Source of the DNA: an uncultured Verrucomicrobiota bacterium
Lineage (GTDB): Bacteria; Verrucomicrobiota; Kiritimatiellia; RFP12; UBA1067
Length of the DNA stretch: 10,323 nt
Direction of reading: 5' to 3'
Assembly: GCA_946631535.1 (NCBI GenBank)
Contig: CAMPAF010000087.1
Span: 1-10,323, forward strand
Part shown: positions 1-10,323 of the stretch, piece by piece
Numbering within the stretch: position 1 is the stretch's first letter
Layout of the letters: each line of letters begins with the position of its first letter
Translations under genes and position numbers: made by a program
Notes under the pieces: generated by a model
Databases searched by the model: none
What the model saw: only the letters and a program-made list of their open reading frames with translations
Told to the model about the DNA's origin: nothing

Positions 1-767
1 TCGCGGAGCCACTGGTGCGACACCTCGTACGCCGTCTTGGCGTCGAGCGCCGGAAGATGGTCGTGCTTGAGCGTGGCCATCGCCGCCATGAGGGCCTCGC
101 GGTAACCGCAGTTCTCGTAGCGGGGACGCCCCTCCATGTAGTAGGACTCCGCCTCGAAGCTCCCGCCGGGCGGCAGGGTGATCCACGTGTCGTAGCGGCC
201 CGTGTAACTGTACTTGAACGTGTAGCTTACGGGGCTTTCGCGGATCGGGTAGATGATACGGTGCTCGAAGCGGCCGTCCTCGAGCTTGCGGATCGAGCAG
301 GAACTCTCCAGCGACGCCGCGTCGCGGTCCGAAGCGTACATCGCAAACAGCTCGTCCTTCGTCTCGGAGAGCGTGCAGGACGGGATGGCCGCGCGGTCGT
401 AGCCGAACACCCACGGCTCGCCGTCGCGCTCAAGTCCGCTCGGCGAGACCTGCGATCCGAACTTGTTGTCGCCGTAGATGACGCCGGGGATCACCCAGTT
501 CGTCGGCTTGAAGGAGGTGTCCGCACGCACGGCCACCTGAAACGTGCGCGTCTCGTTCGAGAGGTTCGTCACCTTCACGAGACGCGTGAAGAGCTTGCAG
601 CCGGCCGGCGCGCCTTTCGCCTCGCGCACGCATTCCTGGACGGTGTACTTGGCCGCGCAGTCGACGTCGCCGCCGCCCTTCTCGTATATCTCCACCGGCA
701 GGAGCCTGCCGAAGCCCGCAGACGCGATGCCCGCGACCGCGAGCGCGAAGAATAATGTCGTACGCAT
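1..767 (-). CDS. Secreted protein of unknown function, N-terminal part (runs off left edge)
   Basis: An uninterrupted reading frame of 255 codons runs from ATG at 767 to the window edge, so the C-terminus is missing. Residues 1-17 form a signal peptide: MRTT, then a hydrophobic core (LFFALAVAGIA), with a likely cleavage after ASA. The next ~200 residues alternate polar and aromatic positions, as in a beta-sandwich (for example residues 90-104, NWVIPGVIYGDNKFG). From about residue 219 the sequence turns helical (YREALMAAMATLKHD), as in secreted carbohydrate-active enzymes with a beta domain followed by an alpha/alpha barrel; this comparison is inference only. It has several cysteines (37, 46, 57, 131, 157, 220). 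It starts 31 bp after the Ldi-domain gene, with no clear promoter between, so it is probably the last visible gene of that operon. An AAGGAA lies about 10 nt before the ATG. I do not recognise the family. Confidence 0.82.
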   Translation of the reverse strand, partial: MRTTLFFALAVAGIASAGFGRLLPVEIYEKGGGDVDCAAKYTVQECVREAKGAPAGCKLFTRLVKVTNLSNETRTFQVAVRADTSFKPTNWVIPGVIYGDNKFGSQVSPSGLERDGEPWVFGYDRAAIPSCTLSETKDELFAMYASDRDAASLESSCSIRKLEDGRFEHRIIYPIRESPVSYTFKYSYTGRYDTWITLPPGGSFEAESYYMEGRPRYENCGYREALMAAMATLKHDHLPALDAKTAYEVSHQWLR

Positions 768-788
768 GGTGTGCTGTTCCTTTCCTTG

Positions 789-807
789 AAGTTTTTCCTC
801 AAAACTT
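789..807 (-). other. Small hairpin in the gap between Ldi-domain gene and secreted-protein gene
   Basis: AAGTTTT (789-795) and AAAACTT (801-807) are perfect 7-bp arms around a 5-base loop. The hairpin overlaps the stop codon of the upstream gene (799-801) and lies just before the next ribosome-binding site. In the direction of transcription it is not followed by a U-run, so it does not look like an intrinsic terminator. It may only affect mRNA processing or relative expression. Confidence 0.3.
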
Positions 808-3231
808 GAGCGGGCCTCGGCCCTGCACGAGATCCCTGAGACGGCTGCCGTTCTTCTCGGCGAGCGAAATGATGCGGTTGGCCGTGGCGCCGATGCGCCA
901 GTCGCGGCCCGCCTCGAGCCGAAGCATGCCGCCTTCGCGGACGAGGAACTTGTCCGCGATGGCGTCGAGGCGATCCGCCGTCTCGTCATCGTCGCACGCA
1001 CGCGCGGCGGCGGCGAGGAACGACGATGCCGCAACCGGCGGCACGTCCACCGGCCGGCAGCAGGTGAAATCCTCGTTACCAACGTCGGGCCGCGTTTCAA
1101 GGCCTTCCCAGTCTATCTTCTCGGCCGCCTTGCGCCAGAGCGCCACCGCCGTCCGCCGGTCTGCCGCCCACGGCTCGTACCAGAGCAGCGACCAGCCGTC
1201 CAGCGCGCCGTCGCCGCGCGGGTAGAAGATTCCCGACCTTACGTGGTACACGAGCTTCATCGCGCCGCCGCCGAACATGGGACCGACGTACTTGGCAAGC
1301 GCCCACTTCTCCCACCGGCGCGCGTCCTTCGTCCAGTCCCCGTAACCTAGCCTAGCGAAGAGCGACAGCGCCACGTGAGGATGGTTGTTGCAGGGGAAGA
1401 ACATGAGCCCTGGCTCGCACGTGATGCCGCCGTTGGGGCCATTCCGCATCTGGTATACCGTAACGTCGATGAGCTTCTTCACGTCGTAGTGCACGCGCTT
1501 CCCGTCCTTCCACACGAAGTCGAAGCCGTCGCGCCAGTACCGCTTGTCGCCAGTGAACGTCTCGTAGAGCGCCAGGAGCTGGAGCAGATGACCGGTGTAC
1601 ATCACGTTCTCGCGATAGCAGGGGTCCGGAGCCCATGGCTTGCGTCCCCAATAGTTCTTGCTCATAGAGTACGCCCAAACGTCCCGCTTCAGGTAGCGCT
1701 CTATGCAGTTGCCGAGGATGCGCGCAACCGTCTTGCGCTGGGCAGCGTCGCCGCGCATCCCAAGCGCCGCCGCGGCATACCCGCAGAAGGCGATGTGGTA
1801 GCGCTTGGAGAAATTCCCGTGCTGCGTGCCGCCGATGTCCCACCAGGACTTCTCCTCCGCGGGCGGCAGCTTGCCCGTCACATGGTCGAGCCAGCGGAGC
1901 GCCGCCAACTCGTCTTCGGCGAGTGGACGCCCGAACGAGCTTACAGGCCGATCAGCCGACGCTTCCTTTGCTTCTGACGCAAATGGCGGAACTTCCGTCG
2001 TCCCGGCCGCCACCGCCACCATCCCAGCCGCCAGAATCGCGACAAGCACTACCATCTGCCAGCGGCTAAGCGGCGCGGAGCGCTCGCGCCAGGCGATGTC
2101 GCCCACCCACACGGCGAACGACACGATCAGGACCTTCTGCGTTGCCGTCACCCACGGCGCAAACGGCAACAGGTCAGCATCGTGCAGAAACAGGAAGGCG
2201 CCGAAGGACGAGATGACGGACAGCAGGACGCATGCCCACACGAGGTCGCGCCTCGCGTCCTTGCGCGTCCTGGCGAACAGCACCCCCGCCCCTCCCAGCG
2301 CCGCCATGTGGCAGCCCGCGTTGTGGAACAGCATGTTCACGTTCTCCGGCACGAGGGCGATGGTGCACAGCCCCGCGACATTGACGGGCCCGCCCCACGC
2401 CAGAAGCTTTCCCCTCCATGGGCTCTCGAGGAAGCGGTTCCCGACACGCCGCTCGTTCCGCATTCGCTCACTCGCCAGTGACTCGCTCTTCCTTATAATG
2501 CAAGCCCACACGTGAGCGACCGATAGCGCGGCGCATCCTAGCCCGGCGATGAAGAGGTAGTGGCACCAAGGATACGCCACTCCGCGCACGACCGTGCGCC
2601 CTAGTGCGCTAAGCATCTTCATGAACGGGTTGTATCCCCCGCCCGGATAGCAGACCCCCGCAAGCAAGAACAGGAGGAACGCCGCTGAGCCGCCCAACGA
2701 CGCCATCGTCCACACGTTGCGCTTCTCCGGAGCGAAGCGCCACTCCCGCGGCAATATCCACGAGATCAGCAGACAGACCTCTGCCAGCACGTACATGGGG
2801 CCGGCCAGCATGTGGCAGCCCGGCATTCGCAAGAGACCGCCGCCGATCATGAGGTCAGAGGCGCACAGGATGCCGATCCCGCAGGCGTAGAACACGCGCC
2901 GCGTGGCGTACGCGACAGAGAATGCGATGGCGGTGAGGACCGCATATGCGCCTACGGCGACTCCCGTGGCGATCGGCAGCACAGGCGCCAGCCTGACGCC
3001 GGCGAATATCCCAAGAGGCAAGGCAAGCGCGAGCGCCATGCGCCAGTCCGGACGTGCCTCGCGCAGCTGCCCGAACGTCCAAAGGACCTGCGCCAGCGAG
3101 AAGCATGCGACGCCGCAGAGGAATTCCGGCGAGCGGCTAGGCGCGCCCTTGACCGCAAGGAACCAGTCGCCCATGCCGGCCGCGACAAACCCGGCCAGCA
3201 TCCATGCCCTTCGGAAGGTGAACCAGGCCAT
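799..3231 (-). CDS. Polytopic membrane protein with C-terminal linalool dehydratase/isomerase (Ldi)-like domain
   Basis: 810 residues. About residues 8-410 carry some 12 hydrophobic segments. Residues 8-160 resemble the YhhN/TMEM86 (lysoplasmalogenase) fold, with GDWFL at 21-25 and a late ILCASDLMIGGG at 121-132. Residues ~175-410 form a second membrane block with PGGGYNPFMKMLSALG (196-211), recalling DUF998; both assignments are tentative. A linker follows (~411-435), then a soluble Ldi-like domain (~436-810). Compared from memory with Castellaniella LinD, YHIAF (478-482) matches the Tyr66 segment, ENVMYTGHL (541-549) puts His548 at His129, and CEPGLMFFPC (605-614) puts Cys605/Cys614 at Cys171/Cys180 with the same spacing. 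Asp449 may match Asp39; no clear Tyr45 equivalent is seen. Family knowledge: Ldi hydrates or dehydrates monoterpene alcohols. The substrate here is unknown. It starts 3 bp after the mlaD-like stop, so it is almost certainly cotranscribed with the MlaF/MlaD genes. Confidence 0.85.
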   Translation of the reverse strand: MAWFTFRRAWMLAGFVAAGMGDWFLAVKGAPSRSPEFLCGVACFSLAQVLWTFGQLREARPDWRMALALALPLGIFAGVRLAPVLPIATGVAVGAYAVLTAIAFSVAYATRRVFYACGIGILCASDLMIGGGLLRMPGCHMLAGPMYVLAEVCLLISWILPREWRFAPEKRNVWTMASLGGSAAFLLFLLAGVCYPGGGYNPFMKMLSALGRTVVRGVAYPWCHYLFIAGLGCAALSVAHVWACIIRKSESLASERMRNERRVGNRFLESPWRGKLLAWGGPVNVAGLCTIALVPENVNMLFHNAGCHMAALGGAGVLFARTRKDARRDLVWACVLLSVISSFGAFLFLHDADLLPFAPWVTATQKVLIVSFAVWVGDIAWRERSAPLSRWQMVVLVAILAAGMVAVAAGTTEVPPFASEAKEASADRPVSSFGRPLAEDELAALRWLDHVTGKLPPAEEKSWWDIGGTQHGNFSKRYHIAFCGYAAAALGMRGDAAQRKTVARILGNCIERYLKRDVWAYSMSKNYWGRKPWAPDPCYRENVMYTGHLLQLLALYETFTGDKRYWRDGFDFVWKDGKRVHYDVKKLIDVTVYQMRNGPNGGITCEPGLMFFPCNNHPHVALSLFARLGYGDWTKDARRWEKWALAKYVGPMFGGGAMKLVYHVRSGIFYPRGDGALDGWSLLWYEPWAADRRTAVALWRKAAEKIDWEGLETRPDVGNEDFTCCRPVDVPPVAASSFLAAAARACDDDETADRLDAIADKFLVREGGMLRLEAGRDWRIGATANRIISLAEKNGSRLRDLVQGRGPLKF

Positions 3232-3234
3232 GCG

Positions 3235-4386
3235 TCAGAGTCCACCCATTATCAGGGATCCGAAAGTCGAGATGGGAGTCGTGTCGCGGTAGTTGTCCAC
3301 GATCTGGCGAACGTCCTTGATGAGGCCGTTGACCTCGTCGTACATCTCCTGGTCCGTCGTCAGCTTGCCGAGCGTTCCCTCGCCCTTCGCCAGCTTGTCC
3401 GACACCGACTTCAGGTTCTCCATGAGCTTCGAGGCGTTGTCGGCCAATTCCTTGTCGTCCATGATCTTCCCAAGCAGGCCTTCGCTGCTCTTCAGCTTCT
3501 CGGAGGCAGCGCGGATGTTGGCGACGGTGTTCGTGAGATCGCCCCAAAGCGAATCGTCCTTCGCAAGCAGGCGCCCGAGCGTGCCCTCGCCCTTCTCGAT
3601 ACGCTCGGCCACGGACGCCGCATGCGCGAACGTGTCCTTTATGCTCGCCACAGCGTTCGTAAGGTCGCCGTAGGCCGCCTCGTCCTTAGACAGCAGCTTG
3701 CCGAGCGTTCCCTCTCCCTTCTCCAGACGCGCGGAGATGGCAGCCGCGTTGTCGAACGTCTGCCGCGCGCTGGCGACGGTGTTCGTGAGGTCGTCGTAGA
3801 GTTCACTGTCGCTTGAGAGTAGCTTGCCTACCGTACCATCGCCACGCTCCACGCGCGCAACGATGAGGTTGAGGTTCTTGGCGGTCTCCTCGAAGTTTGT
3901 CACGATGTTCTTCAGGCTCCCTTCGGACGTGAGGTCGCTGAGGTTGCGCGCTATCTCGCCGATGTCGCGCATCCAGTCCACCGGCGGCTCGCCATGGAAC
4001 ACCGTCGTGCCAAGCGGCTTCACCTTCCCCGTGCCCTCCTCAAGCAGGAGGTAGTTGCCGCCGAGAAGCGAGAGCGCCGACACCGACGCCTGCCCCGTCT
4101 CGCGCATCACGACGTCGCTGTCCACCTTCACGCGCACCGTGATGTTGGACGATCCCAGCTCGATGCGCTCCACGGCGCCCACCTTCATGCCGCGGTACAT
4201 CACGCTGTCGCGCTCCTTCAGCCCGCCGACGTCTCGGAACACGAACGTCGCCGACGTCTTCGCGCGGCCAAGCAGGAGATCCACGCCCGATATCACGATC
4301 GTGAAGTACGCCAGAAGCGCCAGCACCGCCACCATGAAGATGCCGACGATCACTTCAGCAAAGACATCACTGTTTTTTCTGCTCAT
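3235..4386 (-). CDS. MlaD-family (MCE domain) lipid-transport protein
   Basis: 383 residues. It has a short cytoplasmic N-terminus and one membrane anchor (about 11-33, VIVGIFMVAVLALLAYFTIVI). An MCE/MlaD domain follows at ~43-122, with the hallmark YRGMKVGAVERI (64-75) and SLLGGNYLLLEEG (106-118). The remaining ~260 residues are helical and carry five G-E-G-T-L-G-K-L-type repeats starting at residues 182, 224, 266, 301 and 335. Family knowledge: MCE proteins are periplasmic substrate-binding subunits of Mla-type ABC transporters and move phospholipids or other lipids between the inner and outer membranes. The start is supported by GGAG (4398-4395), 8 nt before the ATG, and by the ATGA overlap with the ATPase gene, which suggests translational coupling. 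It is longer than E. coli MlaD (~180 residues); long helical C-termini are common in other MCE proteins. Confidence 0.93.
   Translation of the reverse strand: MSRKNSDVFAEVIVGIFMVAVLALLAYFTIVISGVDLLLGRAKTSATFVFRDVGGLKERDSVMYRGMKVGAVERIELGSSNITVRVKVDSDVVMRETGQASVSALSLLGGNYLLLEEGTGKVKPLGTTVFHGEPPVDWMRDIGEIARNLSDLTSEGSLKNIVTNFEETAKNLNLIVARVERGDGTVGKLLSSDSELYDDLTNTVASARQTFDNAAAISARLEKGEGTLGKLLSKDEAAYGDLTNAVASIKDTFAHAASVAERIEKGEGTLGRLLAKDDSLWGDLTNTVANIRAASEKLKSSEGLLGKIMDDKELADNASKLMENLKSVSDKLAKGEGTLGKLTTDQEMYDEVNGLIKDVRQIVDNYRDTTPISTFGSLIMGGL
3286..3852 (-). repeat. Internal tandem repeats in the MlaD-like C-terminus (42/42/~38/~31/~36 residues)
   Basis: Two exact 42-residue (126-nt) units occupy residues 179-220 and 221-262, and a third starts at 263. 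Each begins with (V/L/I)E(R/K)G(D/E)GT(V/L)G(K/R)LL and contains DLTN(T/A)VA. Two degenerate units follow (SEGLLGKIM at 301, GEGTLGKLT at 335). The repeats probably form stacked helices or a coiled coil extending from the MCE ring. The DNA is also similar between units, with GAGCGT(G/T)CCCTC on the plus strand at each boundary, which points to duplication. Confidence 0.8.
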
Positions 4387-5138
4387 AGTTTCTTCTCCAG
4401 CAAGTCAGGCGTGATGAACTGCGCCTCCAGGAACTCGCGCACTTCGGGGTTCGACGAGCGCACGAACTCCGCTGGCGGCGCCATCTCCACCACGTGCCCG
4501 TTCTTAAGCATGAGGACCTTGTCCGCGAAGAGGAGCGCGCCCTGCAGGTCGTGCGTCACCACGATGGAGGTGACTCCGCGCTCCTTGTTCAGCTTGCGGA
4601 TCAGGCGGTTGATCGTAATCGACGTAACCGGGTCCAGACCCGACGTCGGCTCGTCGTAAAGCACGATGTCGCATTCGCGCACCAGCACGCGCGCAAGGCC
4701 TGCGCGCTTTTGCATTCCGCCGGATATCTCGGCCGGATAGAGATCCGCCGCGCCCGACAGATCCACCGCAGCGAGCGCGTCTGCCACGCGCCGGTCGATC
4801 GCAGCGTCGTCCAGATTCGTCCGCTCCCTGAGCGGCAACGCCACGTTCTCGCCCACCGTGAGCCAGCCCAGCAGCGCGCCGCCCTGGAACAGGTAGCCGA
4901 TCCTGGCGTGGATCGCCTCCAGCGCCTTGCCGCGCGCAGAGGAAATCTCCATGTCGTCCAGCCACACGCTCCCGGATGTCGGCGTCAGGAGACGGACGAG
5001 GTGCTTCAGCGTCACGGACTTGCCAGTGCCGGACGGTCCCACGAGCGCAAGCACCTCGCCATTGTCGACAGTGAAGGACACGCCGGCAAGGACTTCCCTG
5101 CCGTCGAACCGCTTCACGACGTTCTCAAACCGAATCAT
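4383..5138 (-). CDS. MlaF-type ABC transporter ATP-binding protein
   Basis: 251 residues with a complete nucleotide-binding domain: Walker A GPSGTGKS (34-41), Q-loop in LFQGGALL (83-90, Gln85), signature ISGGMQKR (138-145), Walker B IVLYDE (158-163), D-loop SGLDP, and H-loop His196 in VTHD. The LFQGGAL stretch and C-terminal ITPDLLEKKL fit the MlaF/Mkl branch that powers MCE lipid transporters. It should act on the cytoplasmic face with an MlaE permease, but no permease gene is adjacent: the next gene upstream encodes an unrelated secreted protein. The start at 5138 is set by the first residues of the domain (MIRFENVVKRFDG) and by a -10 box only 9 nt upstream. There is no Shine-Dalgarno sequence, which suggests a leaderless message. 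The end overlaps the mlaD-like start by 4 nt. Confidence 0.94.
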   Translation of the reverse strand: MIRFENVVKRFDGREVLAGVSFTVDNGEVLALVGPSGTGKSVTLKHLVRLLTPTSGSVWLDDMEISSARGKALEAIHARIGYLFQGGALLGWLTVGENVALPLRERTNLDDAAIDRRVADALAAVDLSGAADLYPAEISGGMQKRAGLARVLVRECDIVLYDEPTSGLDPVTSITINRLIRKLNKERGVTSIVVTHDLQGALLFADKVLMLKNGHVVEMAPPAEFVRSSNPEVREFLEAQFITPDLLEKKL

Positions 5139-5234
5139 GACGCAGACATTATACCATAAAGTCGCAGGCCCGCATCGCCGCTAACGTACTCTATTGTGCA
5201 AAATTTCCAAAATCGGAGTGACGCTAGAAGTGCC
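5139..5234. other. Intergenic gap between beta-helix gene and MlaF operon
   Basis: These 96 bp hold the operon's extended -10 box near the left end and an AT-rich stretch around 5194-5213. I see no convincing intrinsic terminator for the beta-helix gene, so some read-through into the operon is possible. Confidence 0.5.
5148..5156 (-). promoter_or_regulatory. Extended -10 promoter for the MlaF-MlaD-Ldi operon
   Basis: On the minus strand, TGGTATAAT (5156-5148) is a perfect extended -10 element (TGn plus TATAAT). The -35 region around 5176-5171 (GATGCG) is poor, which the TGn motif could compensate for. Transcription would start near 5141, leaving almost no leader before the ATG at 5138. Confidence 0.65.
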
Positions 5235-7445
5235 TCAGCGAGGCTCGAAGCTGCCCGGATTGTCCGTGAGCACGAGGCCGTCGTACTGGGGCTTGCCGTA
5301 TGGCGTTGCTCGGATGCGCACCGTGTGCTGTCCCGGCTGGAAATCCCAGTGGCAGGTCATGTCGCCGAACTTGTGCCCGGGCGTGAGCATCGTCCAGGTA
5401 GGATAGGGCTTGGTCTGCTGGATCGACTCGGCCGCCTGTTCGCCGTCCACCGCCACGAGCAGGCGGTCGCGCCCCCCCCCCTTTGCGTGAACCATCATGT
5501 AGTAGCGTCCAGCTTTCGGCACGTCAAACGTGAACGCGGTTTCCTTCTTGCGGTCGAAGGTCTTGAACTCGCCTTCGCGCAGGCCGTCCGCGTAGAGGGC
5601 GAAATCCCCTTCCCGCGCGGCCTTGTAAGGCGGGACGAAATCCGTCTCCGCGTAGAGCGACACGGGGCGCGACAGGCCCTCCGTCGTGCGAACGAGGAAC
5701 GCGCCGCGGTAGTTGTGGCGGTCGACCATGCGCTCGGGCCGGAACGTGACGGTGAACATCACTTTGCCGCCCGCGGGGATCACGCCCTGCGCGGGAGCGA
5801 CGTCGAACCAGTCGAACGCGTCGCATTTCGCGACGGCGAACGGCACGTCGCGCGCGCCGCCCGTGGCCGTCACGCGCACGTGCGCCGGCGCCGCCCGTCC
5901 CTTCGCCACCTGGATGCCGGAGAAGCGCGCGCGGTCGAGCTGGAAGCCCGCCGGACGCGCCGGCCACTTCACGGGAAGGTCCTTCTCGGCGAGCTCGACG
6001 CCGAATTTGTCATCCATGCTCGTCATGAACGGCGACACGTCGCGTCCGCGGAACTTCTGCGCGCCGCAGAACGTGTTGCCGCGTGTCTGGAGGCGCAGGA
6101 GCTGCATGCGCGTGATGCCGGTGCCCGTGCCCCAGAGGAGGTTGCCGTACATGTACGCCCAGGCCTCCGCGCCGTGCTCGCCGCCGCCGGTCTTGATCGT
6201 CTGTCCGGCGAGCCCGAACTCGTCGCCCATCGAGTAGAAGCCGTTGTCGTGCACGTACACGGGGCTCGCCATGCAGCCCTGCACGGACACGCCGCAGAGC
6301 GCCTCCTCGAAGCGGTTGTCCCAGCAGCGCACGTTCTGCTGACCGCCGTCGAGCTCGATGCAGTCGTCGTTGCAAATCGCCATGAAGTTGCCGTAGACGT
6401 CGGCGTCACGGTTGAAGCCGCCGTCCGCGCTGAAGTTGCCGATGCTCTCCACGGCGTCGTTCCAGCGGTGCGCGTCGCTCCCGACGAAGTCGTTCCAGCG
6501 GATGACGGTGGAGTGGTCGGGGCTCTGCAGGACGACGGCCTCGGGTCCGGCGGGGTGGGAGTAGAACCAGCTGTTCGCCCGTCCGCGCGGGTCGTGGATG
6601 AAGCAGCGCTCCACCACGACCGCCTGGCTTCCCCTTCCGATCTTGATGGCGCCGTCCATGTTGATGCCGTAGCCGCGCGCCGGCTTGCCGACCTCGTGGC
6701 GGCGCCCGAGCATGTCGAAGCGCGGCGTGCCCACGCGTCCCCATCGCGCGATGTCGCAGCCGCGCACGCGCACGCACGAACTCTTCTCGATGGTCATCAC
6801 GTACCGCGCACCGGAGCCGCGGATCGTGAGGTTGTCGAAGAGCACGTACGCCGCGCCCTCCACCTGGAAGCAGAGTTCCTTCTCAGTAGGGTTGTCCAGC
6901 ACCACGCCGGGCTTGGTCGCATAGCGCACCCAGCCGTCGGGCTTGCCGCGGTCGCTCACCTTCACGGGGAACGTCGTCTGCGCGTCGAGCCACACTGTGC
7001 GCGCCACCGGCACTTCGCTCGCCCACGTGCGGAACGATGTCTGCGCGCGGACATTTCCGTCCGCCACAATGCGCAACTCGTATTCGGTGTCCTCCTCGAG
7101 GCGCAGGATTGAGCCTCGGTAGTCGCCCGTCTCGTCGAAGTGCGGGAACTCGCGCAGCGTCTGCCACGACCCCGCGCCGCGCTTGCGCCACTCGAGCGCG
7201 AGGCCGGGCACGGCCTTCGCCGCTCCGTAGCACACGCCGCTCGCGGCGAACGTGGGCCGCACGCGCAGCACGCCTTCCGCCACGGGGGCGATGAGCGTCT
7301 TCCGGCGCGCAGCACGTTCGGCGTCCGAAGGCTGCGCGGACCCGGGCCGCGTTGCGCCAAATGCGCCGAGCGCGGCCAACAGCATGCCCAGCAGACCCGC
7401 CATGAGGCGGCATCTGCCCGTTTCGACCAGACGAGAATTGCTCAT
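5235..7445 (-). CDS. Secreted right-handed beta-helix protein with C-terminal carbohydrate-binding-like domain
   Basis: 736 residues from ATG 7445. This start is preferred over an upstream in-frame ATG at 7511 because a -35/-10 promoter ends 7 nt before it and a signal peptide follows directly (hydrophobic ~13-31, LMAGLLGMLLAALGAFGA). Residues ~57-150 resemble a fibronectin-III-like domain. Residues ~180-465 are beta-helix rungs rich in N, D and G (CVRVRGCDIARWG, AVVVERCFIHDP, NRDADVYGNFMAICNDDCIELDG at 345-367). Residues ~515-605 form an Ig-like domain, and ~606-736 a beta-sandwich with GRYYMMVHAKG and LLVAVDGEQ, as in CBM6/35-like modules. Family knowledge: such proteins are polysaccharide lyases, hydrolases or glycan-binding proteins; I cannot name substrate or catalytic residues. 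It is separate from the lipid operon downstream. A G10 tract encodes Gly656-658. Confidence 0.87.
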   Translation of the reverse strand: MSNSRLVETGRCRLMAGLLGMLLAALGAFGATRPGSAQPSDAERAARRKTLIAPVAEGVLRVRPTFAASGVCYGAAKAVPGLALEWRKRGAGSWQTLREFPHFDETGDYRGSILRLEEDTEYELRIVADGNVRAQTSFRTWASEVPVARTVWLDAQTTFPVKVSDRGKPDGWVRYATKPGVVLDNPTEKELCFQVEGAAYVLFDNLTIRGSGARYVMTIEKSSCVRVRGCDIARWGRVGTPRFDMLGRRHEVGKPARGYGINMDGAIKIGRGSQAVVVERCFIHDPRGRANSWFYSHPAGPEAVVLQSPDHSTVIRWNDFVGSDAHRWNDAVESIGNFSADGGFNRDADVYGNFMAICNDDCIELDGGQQNVRCWDNRFEEALCGVSVQGCMASPVYVHDNGFYSMGDEFGLAGQTIKTGGGEHGAEAWAYMYGNLLWGTGTGITRMQLLRLQTRGNTFCGAQKFRGRDVSPFMTSMDDKFGVELAEKDLPVKWPARPAGFQLDRARFSGIQVAKGRAAPAHVRVTATGGARDVPFAVAKCDAFDWFDVAPAQGVIPAGGKVMFTVTFRPERMVDRHNYRGAFLVRTTEGLSRPVSLYAETDFVPPYKAAREGDFALYADGLREGEFKTFDRKKETAFTFDVPKAGRYYMMVHAKGGGRDRLLVAVDGEQAAESIQQTKPYPTWTMLTPGHKFGDMTCHWDFQPGQHTVRIRATPYGKPQYDGLVLTDNPGSFEPR
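5472..5481 (-). repeat. G10 homopolymer inside the beta-helix gene
   Basis: Ten consecutive C on the plus strand (ten G in the coding strand) encode Gly656-658 in the C-terminal binding-like domain. Tracts of this length are prone to slippage. A one-base change would replace or truncate the last ~80 residues. It may be a phase-variable site or simply a sequencing-sensitive spot; as given, the frame is intact. Confidence 0.6.
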
Positions 7446-7452
7446 GCGGCAG

Positions 7453-7481
7453 ATTATACACCAAACAGACGGCGCCATCAA
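7453..7481 (-). promoter_or_regulatory. Sigma-70-type promoter of the beta-helix gene
   Basis: On the minus strand, TTGATG (7481-7476) and TATAAT (7458-7453) are separated by exactly 17 bp. The -10 box ends 7 nt before the ATG at 7445, so transcription would begin at or next to the start codon. No Shine-Dalgarno sequence fits in that gap. Confidence 0.7.
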
Positions 7482-7522
7482 CGGGCCGGGAACCTGGCAC
7501 TTCAAGTCCAAGCTCGCAATTC

Positions 7523-7551
7523 TTGCACCGCGGCGCGAAATACACTATACT
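7523..7551 (+). promoter_or_regulatory. Sigma-70-type promoter of the hydF operon
   Basis: TTGCAC (7523-7528) and TATACT (7546-7551) are 17 bp apart. The predicted transcription start is about 7558, 30 nt before the hydF ATG and right at a small upstream ORF. It is divergent from the beta-helix promoter, with about 90 bp between the two start points. Confidence 0.6.
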
Positions 7552-7559
7552 TGTCGGCC

Positions 7560-7601
7560 ATGGAACAGACAGCGAAAAAGGAAACGGCATGGCCGGCCTG
7601 A
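7560..7601 (+). CDS. Possible 13-codon leader peptide overlapping the hydF start
   Basis: ATG at 7560 opens a 13-residue frame, MEQTAKKETAWPA, that stops with TGA at 7599-7601. The ATG lies 8 nt after the -10 box, the same geometry as the two leaderless-looking genes on the other strand. The frame runs through the hydF Shine-Dalgarno and past its ATG at 7589. If translated, it could be coupled to hydF; it may equally be chance. There is no sequence evidence beyond position. Confidence 0.3.
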   Translation: MEQTAKKETAWPA

Positions 7602-8707
7602 ACGAGACGCCATCGGGCGACCGCGTGCGCCTAGCCTTCTTCGGGCGGCGCAACGCCGGCAAAAGCTCGCTCATCAACGCCCTCACCGGACAGGAGGTCG
7701 CCATCGTGAGCGATGTCCCCGGCACCACCACCGACCCGGTCTCCAAGGCGATGGAGATTCTTCCCCTCGGTCCTTGCCTGCTCACCGACACCGCCGGCCT
7801 CGACGACGAGGGATCGCTCGGCGCAGAGCGCGTCCGCCGCGCCCGCGAGGTCCTCGCCGCCACCGACATCGCCATCGTCGTAACCGCAGACACGCTCGGT
7901 CCGCTGGAGAACGAGCTGATTGCCGACTGCGACCGCCGGCACGTCCCCCACCTCGTCTACACGCGCGGCGACGACGTTGAGGCGCTCAAGCGACAGATCG
8001 CCGCCCTCGCCCCTTCCGACCCCACACGCCCGCTAGTCTCCGACCTGGTCTCTCCCGGCGACTGCGTAGTCTGCGTCTGCCCCATCGACTCCGCCGCTCC
8101 CAAGGGCCGCCTTATCCTCCCTCAGCAGCAGGTAATCCGCGAAATCCTCGACGGCGGCGCGTCTGCGCTCGTCTGCCGCGAGACCGAACTCGCCGCCACC
8201 CTCGCGCGCCTCGCCGAGCCGCCCCGCTTCGTCGTCACCGACTCTCAGGCCTTCGGCGCCGTCAGCAAGGTCGTCCCGCCAGAGGTGCCGCTCACTTCCT
8301 TCTCCATCGTGTTCGCGCGCGCGAAAGGCGACCTTGCCACGTACTGCGCCGGCGCGGACGCGCTCAAGAGACTGAAGGACGGAGACAGGGTCCTCGTGAG
8401 CGAGGGCTGCACGCACCACCGCCAGTGCACGGACATCGGAACCGTCAAGTTGCCGAGGTGGATCCAGGAATACACCGGCAAGAAGCTGAACTTCGCCTGG
8501 ACGTCCGGCAACGCCTTCCCTGACGACCTCTCGCCGTACGCGCTCGTCGTCCACTGCGGCGCATGCATGCTCACGCGCCGCGCCGTCCAGAACCGTCTCG
8601 CCCGATGCCGCGCGGCCGGCGTCCCAGTCACCAACTACGGCATCTGCATAGCGGCCTGTCACGGGATACGGGTAGTGCCGAAAACGTGCATGGTGTTGAG
8701 GGGTTGA
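7589..8707 (+). CDS. hydF: [FeFe]-hydrogenase maturation GTPase HydF
   Basis: 372 residues. It has an N-terminal GTPase domain: P-loop GRRNAGKS (19-26), switch GTTTDP (45-50), DTAG (67-70). A dimerisation region follows, then the C-terminal Fe-S domain with CTHH (274-277), RQCTDIGTVKLPRW (278-291) and HCGAC (322-326), fitting CxH-x(44-53)-HCxxC with 45 residues between. Family knowledge: HydF is the scaffold on which HydE and HydG build the 2Fe subcluster before transfer to the [FeFe]-hydrogenase HydA. No hydE, hydG or hydA is in the window. The start at 7589 is supported by AAGGAA (7578-7583), 5 nt before the ATG, and by alignment of the first beta strand. The G4 motif is unusual: TRGD (125-128) replaces NKxD. 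The protein is somewhat shorter than usual (~400), and its last residues (VLRG) are encoded by a tandem repeat. Confidence 0.96.
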   Translation: MAGLNETPSGDRVRLAFFGRRNAGKSSLINALTGQEVAIVSDVPGTTTDPVSKAMEILPLGPCLLTDTAGLDDEGSLGAERVRRAREVLAATDIAIVVTADTLGPLENELIADCDRRHVPHLVYTRGDDVEALKRQIAALAPSDPTRPLVSDLVSPGDCVVCVCPIDSAAPKGRLILPQQQVIREILDGGASALVCRETELAATLARLAEPPRFVVTDSQAFGAVSKVVPPEVPLTSFSIVFARAKGDLATYCAGADALKRLKDGDRVLVSEGCTHHRQCTDIGTVKLPRWIQEYTGKKLNFAWTSGNAFPDDLSPYALVVHCGACMLTRRAVQNRLARCRAAGVPVTNYGICIAACHGIRVVPKTCMVLRG

Positions 8708-8784
8708 GAGGTTGAGGGGTTGAGATATGAAAGTCGAAAGTCGAAAAGTCGTCCCGGTTGTCGGTCGCCGGATGTCGAATGTCG
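8696..8784. repeat. Low-complexity patch: TTGAGGGG, GAAAGTC and ATGTCGA tandems
   Basis: Three and a half 8-bp units (TTGAGGGG, TTGAGAGG, TTGAGGGG, TTGAGATA) span 8696-8727. Three GAAAGTC-like units follow (8729-8750), then ATGTCGA/ATGTCGC (8772-8785). The patch contains the hydF stop codon (8705-8707) and the first start codon proposed for the dehydrogenase. The composition is unlike the neighbouring genes. Confidence 0.75.
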
Positions 8785-9767
8785 CTACAATTCCACCACG
8801 CTATTTGCTTTGGCTCAACTGGCCGATCAGCGCGTTCCGGCTCGACGCCAGCTCGCTCGCCGTGTTCAAAGAGTGCGTAACCGCCGCCAAGACGGCGGTT
8901 TTCCCTGTCTGTTCCGCCGCCAAGATGGCGGCTCCCCATATGGATAGCCGCCGTTCTGGCGGCGATGTCATCACCGTCGTGCGCAGCGAGCGCGCCTTCC
9001 TCAAGGCGCTGCCTTGTGCCACCCATGCGATTGTGTGGGAATTCAAGAAGGAATGGTTCGCTCGCGCGAAGAAGTTGCGCGTCCTCGCGACGCCCAGCGC
9101 GGGCCGCGAGCTGCTGCCCACAGACGCCGAGATGCCGCCCGGCATCGTGCGCGTCAACGGCGCGTTCCACGGGCAGATCATGTCGGAGACCGTCGTCGCA
9201 TGCATCTTCGCCCACGCGCGTGGGCTCTACCGCGCCTACGACTGGCAGCGCGCGGGCGTCCTCTGGCCGCGCGCGGAGCTAAGCCCCTTCTGCTCGCTCG
9301 TCGCAGGCACGAAGGCCGTCATCCTCGGCTACGGCAAGATCGGCCACACCGTCGGCGCGAAGCTCGAGGCGCTCGGCGTCTCTGTCGTAGGCATACGGCG
9401 CGCAAACATCGCCGATCTCAAGCCTGCCCTCAAGACGGCTGACTGGCTTATCGTGGTGCTGCCGTCGGACACCGGCACCGACAACATCGTGGACGCTTCC
9501 GTCCTGCGCTCGATGAAGCGCTCCGCCGTCATCGTCAACATCGGGCGCGGAAACGCAGTGGACGAGGAAGCGCTCGCGGACACGCTCCGCATGCGGCGCA
9601 TCGCAGCAGCGTACCTCGACGTGTTCAAGAGCGAACCCCTCGCCGCAGCCTCGCCCCTCGCCGCGGACATCCCCGGCCTCGTTCGCCTCCCGCACGGTTC
9701 CGCGTTCGCCCCCGACTACCTTCCGCTCTTCTTCCGCGAACTCCAGAAAGGAGGCTGGCTCGCATGA
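8727..9767 (+). CDS. D-2-hydroxyacid dehydrogenase (NAD(P)-dependent)
   Basis: 346 residues from ATG 8727. It has a Rossmann motif GYGKIG (201-206) and the catalytic triad Arg274 (NIGRGNAVD), Glu303 (KSEPL) and His323 (LPHGS). Basic residues at 224-225 (GIRR), where NAD enzymes have Asp, suggest NADP(H), as in glyoxylate/hydroxypyruvate reductases. The reaction would be 2-oxoacid reduction or its reverse in the cytoplasm; the substrate is not predictable. The domain begins at about residue 26 (RYLLWLNWPI). ATG 8727 has GAGGGG 7 nt upstream, but both lie in a tandem repeat; ATG 8772 (residue 16) and TTG 8805 are alternatives. Residues 51-79 are encoded by three palindromic repeats and form an in-frame insertion between the first helix and second strand. 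The end overlaps tsaE by ATGA. Its connection with hydF is positional only. Confidence 0.9.
   Translation: MKVESRKVVPVVGRRMSNVATIPPRYLLWLNWPISAFRLDASSLAVFKECVTAAKTAVFPVCSAAKMAAPHMDSRRSGGDVITVVRSERAFLKALPCATHAIVWEFKKEWFARAKKLRVLATPSAGRELLPTDAEMPPGIVRVNGAFHGQIMSETVVACIFAHARGLYRAYDWQRAGVLWPRAELSPFCSLVAGTKAVILGYGKIGHTVGAKLEALGVSVVGIRRANIADLKPALKTADWLIVVLPSDTGTDNIVDASVLRSMKRSAVIVNIGRGNAVDEEALADTLRMRRIAAAYLDVFKSEPLAAASPLAADIPGLVRLPHGSAFAPDYLPLFFRELQKGGWLA
8786..8791 (+). promoter_or_regulatory. Possible -10 box inside the start region of the dehydrogenase
   Basis: TACAAT lies just after the low-complexity patch and before the conserved part of the protein. If it is a real -10 box, the true start would be downstream, with in-frame TTG 8805 the only nearby candidate. 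No good -35 was found. Confidence 0.25.
8879..8963. repeat. Cluster of three GC-rich palindromes inserted in frame in the dehydrogenase gene
   Basis: Hairpin 1 has AACCGCC (8879-8885) and GGCGGTT (8894-8900). Hairpin 2 has GCCGCC (8916-8921) and GGCGGC (8927-8932), with loop AAGAT. Hairpin 3 has GCCGCC (8947-8952) and GGCGGC (8958-8963), with loop GTTCT. Palindrome CCATATGG (8936-8943) lies between 2 and 3. The first two share GCCGCCAAGA(C/T)GGCGG. The pattern resembles dispersed palindromic elements, here translated without stops. Confidence 0.85.
9747..9754 (+). promoter_or_regulatory. Strong ribosome-binding site for tsaE
   Basis: AAAGGAGG ends 9 nt before the ATG at 9764 and lies inside the end of the dehydrogenase gene. 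It is the clearest Shine-Dalgarno sequence in the window and fixes the tsaE start. Confidence 0.8.
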
Positions 9768-10183
9768 ACCAGGCATACAACGTATCTTCCGTCGAGGAGA
9801 CTTGGGCCGTGGCCCGCCAGTTCGCCGCCGAGCTTAAGCCTGGCGACATCGTGTGCCTGGAGGGCGACCTCGGCGCGGGCAAGACCACGTTCACGCAGGG
9901 CCTCGCGGCCTCGCTCGGCGCGAAGCGCGCAGTCACCAGCCCGACGTTCTGCCTCGTCGTGGAGCATCCAGTGGAGAAGTTCCTGCTCGTGCACATGGAT
10001 CTCTACCGCCTGCACGACGCCGACGACGTGCTAGCGATCGGCTGGGAGGACTACCTCGCGCGCAACGCGGTCCTTTTCGTCGAGTGGCCAGACCGCGCCG
10101 GCGATCTGATCCCGTCCACGGCGCGCCATGTCGTCTTCACGCTAGGCGACACCCCCGACTCCCGCACCATCACTTTCCGGTAG
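9764..10183 (+). CDS. tsaE: tRNA threonylcarbamoyladenosine biosynthesis ATPase TsaE
   Basis: 139 residues, close to the usual ~150. It has Walker A GDLGAGKTTF (34-43), VTSPTF (57-62, switch-like segment), HMDLYRL (77-83) and VEWPDRAGDLIP (106-117, with the conserved Glu-Trp), all typical of TsaE (YjeE). Family knowledge: TsaE binds the TsaB-TsaD complex and uses ATP to drive synthesis of t6A at position 37 of ANN-decoding tRNAs; it is essential in many bacteria. The gene overlaps the dehydrogenase stop by 4 nt (ATGA), so the two are cotranscribed and probably translationally coupled. Neither TsaB nor TsaD is in the window. Confidence 0.96.
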   Translation: MNQAYNVSSVEETWAVARQFAAELKPGDIVCLEGDLGAGKTTFTQGLAASLGAKRAVTSPTFCLVVEHPVEKFLLVHMDLYRLHDADDVLAIGWEDYLARNAVLFVEWPDRAGDLIPSTARHVVFTLGDTPDSRTITFR

Positions 10184-10186
10184 ATA

Positions 10187-10260
10187 TTAAAACCACGAAA
10201 TACACGAAATACACGAAAGTGCACAGAGGCTTTTCGTGCGGTTCGCGTATTTCGTGGTTA
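10187..10260. repeat. REP-like inverted repeat with CACGAAATA tandem units
   Basis: Outer arms AACCACGAAATACACGAA (10191-10208) and TTCGCGTATTTCGTGGTT (10242-10259) pair over 18 bp with one mismatch. Inner arms CACGAAA (10212-10218) and TTTCGTG (10232-10238) nest inside. The left side contains three CACGAAA units at 9-bp period (10194, 10203, 10212). It starts just after the tsaE stop and could also terminate transcription from either side, though it lacks a clear U-run. Confidence 0.75.
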
Positions 10261-10269
10261 ATTCACAAT

Positions 10270-10323
10270 TCAGGAGAAGATATCGAGCGGGCTGGTGGCT
10301 GCAGCCATGCGCCCTACGGCAGG
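10270..10323 (-). CDS. Possible C-terminal tail of a convergent gene (runs off right edge)
   Basis: On the minus strand a frame enters from the right edge and stops with TGA at 10272-10270, reading PAVGRMAAATSPLDIFS. It is open for all 17 visible codons and uses GC-rich codons like the neighbours. A convergent gene ending at a palindromic repeat would be a normal arrangement. With so few residues this is only a suggestion and the product cannot be named. Confidence 0.35.
   Translation of the reverse strand, partial: PAVGRMAAATSPLDIFS

Follow-up and report, generated by a model that had tools for sequence, protein, structure and literature searches.

The stretch of DNA analysed here (the window; 10,323 nucleotides, positions 1 to 10,323 of the forward strand of contig CAMPAF010000087.1, assembly GCA_946631535.1, from an uncultured Verrucomicrobiota bacterium) carries on its minus strand three consecutive genes, which encode an MlaF-type ATPase, an MCE protein and an 810-residue membrane protein with an Ldi domain. 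An original prediction had read this row as a new system in which parts of an Mla-type lipid transporter are coupled to the Ldi-like enzyme. Comparison with relatives leads to a different view: the locus is probably a partial but ordinary Mla operon that lies beside an independent, exported and membrane-anchored enzyme of the Ldi family, with no functional link between the two across the bacterial family. The novelty is in the architecture and spread of the enzyme, and not in the pairing of MCE and Ldi genes.

Three Adjacent Genes in One Clade

The ATPase gene (4383..5138, minus strand; 251 residues; PF00005 (ABC_tran) E 2e-31) shares four nucleotides (4383-4386) with the gene of the MCE, or MlaD-type, protein (3235..4386, minus strand; 383 residues; MlaD PF02470 E 2e-15, with the MCE domain at residues 45-118). 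The latter is separated by three nucleotides (3232-3234) from the gene of the Ldi-domain protein (799..3231, minus strand; PF18566 E 3e-36). The coordinates of the open reading frames (ORFs) and the Pfam matches thus confirm the row as it was first described. The top NCBIfam model for the ATPase is MlaF, yet it scores 174.5 bits against a cut-off of 441; the closest solved relative is 8fed_G, the ATPase of an Mce1 entry, and MlaF chains are within the top ten. Solved relatives of the MCE protein are Mce1 and MlaD, and its tail is made of five repeats around a GEGTLGKL-like motif (at residues 182, 224, 266, 301, and 335). MlaE was not found among the window ORFs scanned, a point absent from the original prediction.

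Two related loci, L001 and L002, contain the same three genes with identical overlap and gap, and their Ldi proteins are 88 and 89% identical to that of the window, so that the pairing is not confined to the source genome. Synonymous divergence (dS) from the window is 0.13-0.31 for mlaF and ldi, and 0.25 and 0.02 for the MCE gene. The window's MCE protein (3235-4386) is in fact 100% identical to that of L002 (8846-9997), with a dS of 0.022 beside 0.13 and 0.17 for mlaF and ldi, a sign of patchy recombination.

An extended -10 element, TGGTATAAT (5148..5156, minus strand), sits 9 nucleotides ahead of the mlaF ATG in the window as well as in L001 and L002. The strong promoter announced upstream of the row therefore stands in part: the extended -10 is kept in both relatives, but no matching -35 was found and a promoter scan of the window did not list the element. 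Such a promoter would yield a nearly leaderless transcript. With spacing and -10 element the same in three genomes, the row is a genuine unit, of which mlaF is probably the first gene. Co-transcription of the three genes is probable within the clade. The earlier gene calls, the likelihood of one transcript and the placement at the envelope are supported.

MCE and Ldi Genes Across Relatives

How far, then, does the association reach? An alignment of 26 Ldi sequences was scanned over one genome per species (84,980 species), giving 40 pattern matches, among them 33 loci encoding an Ldi relative, and MCE genes were detected there with a profile built on residues 1-130 of 15 MCE proteins from this group. 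Only two of the 33 loci, L001 and L002, have an MCE gene next to Ldi; the MCE gene precedes the Ldi gene in the window, and the sequence extends at least 5 kb before Ldi in 29 of the 33 loci and less than 1 kb in L004, L012, L032, and L033. Of the 114 genomes in the family to which G001 (the genome of L001) belongs, 22 contain PF18566, 110 contain PF02470 and 112 contain MlaE, so that most have Mla but no Ldi. MCE and Ldi share a contig in only 2 of these 22 genomes (G001 and G002), the assemblies being fragmented. At the level of the class (345 genomes), PF18566 is found at E 0.001 in 38 genomes, above the cut-off in 34 and, by our count, at E <1e-15 in 28; six genomes with such a strong match are additional to the 22 of the family, and in all six the contig with Ldi is free of MCE. 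Conserved co-location of the two genes, the check that the original prediction itself called for, is thus restricted, among the genomes compared, to one tight clade, which leaves the proposed functional coupling unsupported. Searches of open-licence literature listed no paper with a title or shown abstract on the architecture of the Ldi protein or on a link between Mla and Ldi.

The arrangement of the mla genes in the lineage is instructive too. In G008, whose MlaF and MCE proteins are 86 and 85% identical to those of the window, mlaE, mlaF, and mlaD are contiguous, and ldi is located elsewhere, 12 nucleotides after panC. MlaE lies within about 2 kb of an MCE gene in at least 23 of the 114 family genomes, as counted from the listed rows. 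In G001 and G002, mlaE is on a different contig from MCE and Ldi, and neither MlaF nor MCE was found in the 14 kb (G001) and 9 kb (G002) around it; a TATAAT stands nine bases from an ATG at mlaE in both genomes, and a thiD-like gene follows in G001. A rearrangement in the window clade would explain this separate mlaE.

The Ldi Domain and Its Active Site

The Ldi domain (residues 477-772; 916..1803, minus strand) passes the PF18566 cut-off comfortably (125.9 bits vs. 26.1), and its only significant solved relatives are linalool dehydratase/isomerases. It was aligned with Ldi of known structure in 144 rows, made of 108 of the 111 relatives collected (P0109, P0110, and P0111 are omitted) and 36 distinct proteins of the window and loci. 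The equivalent of Ldi His128, the active-site histidine, is His548 (1588..1590, minus strand) and is kept in all 144 rows. Equivalents of the catalytic Cys170 and Cys179 are Cys605 (1417..1419, minus strand) and Cys614 (1390..1392, minus strand), each kept in 143 rows with one gap. Tyr65 and Trp53 have their counterparts in 139 rows (five gaps), and the Asp38 position holds Asp or Glu in 125. In contrast to this core, the Tyr44 position is Leu in 128 rows, and Glu and Arg/Lys, respectively, predominate at the positions of Cys48 and Cys101 (Glu and Lys in the window), with Cys outside the six commonest residues of both columns, meaning that the disulfide is not kept. In Ldi itself, Cys170 and Cys179 are described as catalytic and the Cys48-Cys101 disulfide as capping the pocket (PMC6600392). 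Since the core is kept and the pocket cap is not, the alignment hints at a substrate different from that of Ldi.

Selection tells the same part of the protein from the others. The ratio of nonsynonymous to synonymous divergence (dN/dS) between the window and L001, L002, and L027 is 0.035, 0.072, and 0.111 in the Ldi domain, compared to 0.10, 0.35, and 0.27 in the YhhN part described below, 0.26, 0.38, and 0.25 in the DUF998 part, and 0.60, 1.01, and 0.71 in the linker. The Ldi domain is the most constrained part and is under strong purifying selection.

A Modular Membrane Part

Ahead of this domain come two membrane modules that are recognizable in relatives and were absent from the earlier account: a truncated YhhN-like part (about residues 1-165; 2737..3231, minus strand) and a DUF998-like part (about residues 176-385; 2077..2706, minus strand). 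In the window protein itself Pfam scores Ldi only. Among the 26 aligned proteins, Ldi matched all 26, YhhN matched 9 (best E 2e-16) and DUF998 also 9 (best E 8e-8), while PF18566 occurs in at least 109 of the 111 relatives among the matches listed. Metagenome relatives P0001-P0015 are 60-91% identical. The YhhN matches start at position 21-31 of the 182 of the profile, so the first helices are missing. Hydropathy and loop charges across the family, with helix ends placed by hand, on the whole fit 13 helices with the Ldi domain outside, and a periplasmic position is predicted. The starts of many Ldi-only relatives, described below, and the export of the known Ldi to the periplasm add support, though Lis of Thauera is predicted to be cytosolic.

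The membrane part is not a fixed companion. By length, 141 rows divide into 79 full, 36 DUF998-type, and 26 short proteins, although some metagenome proteins are possibly truncated and misclassed. On a tree of 83 of these rows (those more than 85% identical being removed) plus Ldi, with weak support at a third of its forks, 19 changes of class are needed, the short class accounting for 7, and forms without YhhN are scattered among those that bear it. Many of the Ldi-only relatives begin with what by eye is a signal-peptide- or anchor-like start, some with a lipobox-like Cys, the N-termini of several of them being uncertain; the protein of Oligosphaera ethanolica (L025) is one of the signal-peptide type. 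The DUF998-like module (window residues 176-400) also occurs in a metallophosphoesterase (P0110; 46% identity) and in a large protein (P0111; 39%), like a swappable anchor. Used alone as a query, the membrane part retrieved 82 proteins, all of them with PF18566 except these two. As nearly all of its carriers are Ldi proteins, this modularity only weakly favors an anchor over a substrate-specific lipid domain.

Genes Around ldi in Other Genomes

Neighbors were compared by clustering 294 ORFs within 7 kb of Ldi in the 33 loci, using crude longest-ORF gene calls; a second gene caller missed genes, for example mlaF in L001. The Ldi cluster itself covers 26 loci. A second shared cluster, of 9 ORFs in 8 loci, was rejected as probably spurious, 6 of its members overlapping the Ldi gene on the opposite strand. 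Beyond these two, no cluster of neighbors, not all of which were annotated, occurs in more than 3 of the 33 loci. Ten hand-picked adjacent genes belong to unrelated families or to none: panC, a peptidase A24, two PDZ/hydrolase proteins, a rhamnosidase, a DUF4143 ATPase, a leucine-rich repeat protein, an esterase with a sugar-hydrolase domain, a six-hairpin protein and one without family. Close Ldi relatives were not found in a scan of viral contigs.

In the window, ldi is followed by the start of a six-hairpin (GH127-like) protein (3..767, minus strand; 89% identical to the L001 protein). The secreted protein that had been announced there retains its signal-peptide-like start, judged by eye, though its gene is cut by the window end. 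Pfam gave no match for the fragment; the L001 counterpart matches the GH127 and GH76 families below the cut-off. In L001 and L002, ldi is followed by the six-hairpin protein and topoisomerase I, which in L002 form a single 1540-residue reading frame. The gene before mlaF varies: a 758-residue protein with an Ig-like match only in the window, a BNR-repeat protein in L001 and L002.

Proposed Function and Alternatives

In the explanation that we favor, mlaF and mlaD would encode two subunits, ATPase and MCE, of the Mla-type phospholipid transporter that nearly every genome of the family has, with mlaE placed elsewhere behind its own promoter, as it appears in both relatives of the same layout. 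About 13 helices (the truncated YhhN, DUF998, and one more) would tether the Ldi barrel at the periplasmic side. There, a small hydrophobic alcohol or alkene would have water or a hydroxyl added, removed, or shifted at a C=C bond by the Cys/Cys/His site. The membrane part would serve mainly as an anchor or a substrate funnel. We read the Ldi protein as an exported hydratase, dehydratase, or isomerase that would act independently of Mla. Gene order, distribution, conserved residues, and selection are direct observations; co-transcription, topology, and chemistry are inferred from them and from the sequence.

Several observations weigh against this explanation. Three distinct genomes share the layout, which has therefore lasted. 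All 22 Ldi genomes of the family have MCE, so that a link without adjacency is possible, and in fragmented genomes whose completeness is not told, a separate contig is no proof of distance, as a gene on another contig may still be near. Of 17 MCE stretches fetched, many of them picked because mlaE looked separate, 12 were without MlaE and MlaF and 5 had all three; split mlaE and MCE genes are thus not special to the window clade. The topology has its own discordant loops: Lys/Arg average 3.0 in the supposed outer loop 196-218 and are absent from the supposed inner loop 105-107. One rival is a true joint system of the clade in which MlaFD, with MlaE supplied from elsewhere, would pass an envelope lipid to or from a periplasmic Ldi enzyme. 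The tight spacing common to the three genomes, the single upstream promoter element, and the predicted periplasmic position of the Ldi domain would all suit it. Against it stand the 31 of 33 Ldi loci without an MCE gene, the 20 of 22 Ldi genomes with MCE on another contig, the near-universal MCE and MlaE genes in genomes without Ldi, and the close relative G008, in which mla and ldi are apart. Because the genes are mostly apart in relatives, we consider such a system improbable.

Other alternatives concern the enzyme alone. Its barrel could act on carbohydrates, as many six-hairpin barrels do, in partnership with the neighboring six-hairpin protein; the next gene is GH127-like, and a rhamnosidase-type gene adjoins the Ldi gene in L007. 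This is unlikely given that the domain resembles only linalool dehydratase/isomerases among solved structures, that the equivalents of Cys170, Cys179, His128, and Tyr65 are kept, and that, Ldi and the probably spurious cluster apart, no neighbor family among those compared recurs in more than 3 of the 33 loci. Alternatively, the whole protein could be an enzyme of vinyl-ether or isoprenoid lipids, the YhhN part cleaving vinyl ethers and the Ldi part hydrating or isomerizing the product. Proven lysoplasmalogenases do exist among YhhN proteins (PMC11994398, PMC9052158), and by eye and spacing G21, D22, G118, S125, and D126 of the window protein match five of the eight proposed active residues, Y146 being roughly a sixth. 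Yet the first YhhN helices are absent, together with the site where the essential lysine would lie; the proposed active His is Gln in the window; and by length 36 of the 141 rows are DUF998-type and 26 short, those of them on the tree being scattered over it. An active YhhN lysoplasmalogenase was set aside because the lysine-bearing part is missing, and the broader proposal is, in our judgment, decidedly doubtful. Most speculative of all is a new type of envelope lipid enzyme, a single chain with YhhN and Ldi as C=C-hydrating modules joined through DUF998, which would hydrate or isomerize a vinyl-ether or isoprenoid membrane lipid on the periplasmic side and would be wired to Mla in one lineage; we give it very little credence. 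The explanation that we favor thus remains that of an ordinary, partial Mla operon and an Ldi-family enzyme working on its own.

Other Features of the Window

Promoter elements close to start codons are not limited to mlaF. Of 228 genes taken from 31 sources, 17 have a TATAAT-like -10 element 6-9 nucleotides ahead of an in-frame ATG, about 4 per offset compared with 1.3 at offsets 10-40, the gene starts being those of a crude caller. These elements include window positions 5148-5153 and 7453-7458 (minus strand), as well as L070, L071, and L027. This hints at leaderless mRNAs in this bacterial group.

On the plus strand, positions 7523-10183 hold hydF, a 2-hydroxyacid dehydrogenase gene, and tsaE, and relatives of the last two are also found together in L024, a contig that bears Ldi. 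Within the 2-hydroxyacid dehydrogenase ORF, two near-identical palindromes (CCGCCAAGAYGGCGG) are found at 8884-8931. Their number exceeds the 0.07 expected by shuffling (2 of 200 shuffles reach it), the exact form is present in 1 of 79 fetched loci, and they are perhaps a small repeat element. Neither a tRNA nor an Rfam family at gathering score was found in the window.

Significance and Comparison with Known Systems

Knowledge of the Ldi family comes mainly from a few monoterpene enzymes. The branch described here is large and patchy, with records titled Kiritimatiellae, Lentisphaeria, Victivallales, and Verrucomicrobia, from animal guts and lakes; its catalytic residues are kept and its domain strongly constrained, its disulfide is absent, and its membrane anchors are exchangeable. 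It may extend C=C hydration to new substrates. The case also shows that a tidy operon can suggest a system which wider comparison fails to bear out.

Set against the Mla/MCE transporter (MlaFEDB), the window operon has recognizable ATPase and MCE subunits, and the order mlaE-mlaF-mlaD is found in some relatives; it differs in having mlaE outside the operon and an MCE protein with a long repeated tail. With the YhhN/TMEM86 lysoplasmalogenases, the likeness lies in the YhhN profile match of 9 of the 26 aligned relatives. For TMEM86A/B, eight key residues have been proposed, and mutating most of them, including the lysine and both aspartates, is described as leaving less than 10% activity (PMC11994398). 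Unlike these enzymes, the window protein lacks the first helices and the place of the essential lysine, and is fused to DUF998 and Ldi parts.

Closest in its catalytic part is Ldi/LinD of Castellaniella defragrans, which belongs to the same Pfam family and whose Cys170, Cys179, His128, Tyr65, and Trp53 have equivalents in the window protein. The Castellaniella enzyme is described as periplasmic, as predicted here, and as assembled and active only when exported to the periplasm (PMC6600392). The window protein differs by the absence of the Cys48-Cys101 disulfide, by Leu at the position of Tyr44, and by the addition of about 13 membrane helices. In its general design it recalls the linalool isomerase Lis of Thauera linaloolentis, where N-terminal helices likewise anchor an Ldi-like domain to the inner membrane (PMC4791888). 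Compared by description, Lis is predicted to have four helices and a cytosolic Ldi-like part, without a reported Pfam domain (PMC4791888), whereas the window protein carries YhhN- and DUF998-like parts and a barrel predicted to be periplasmic.

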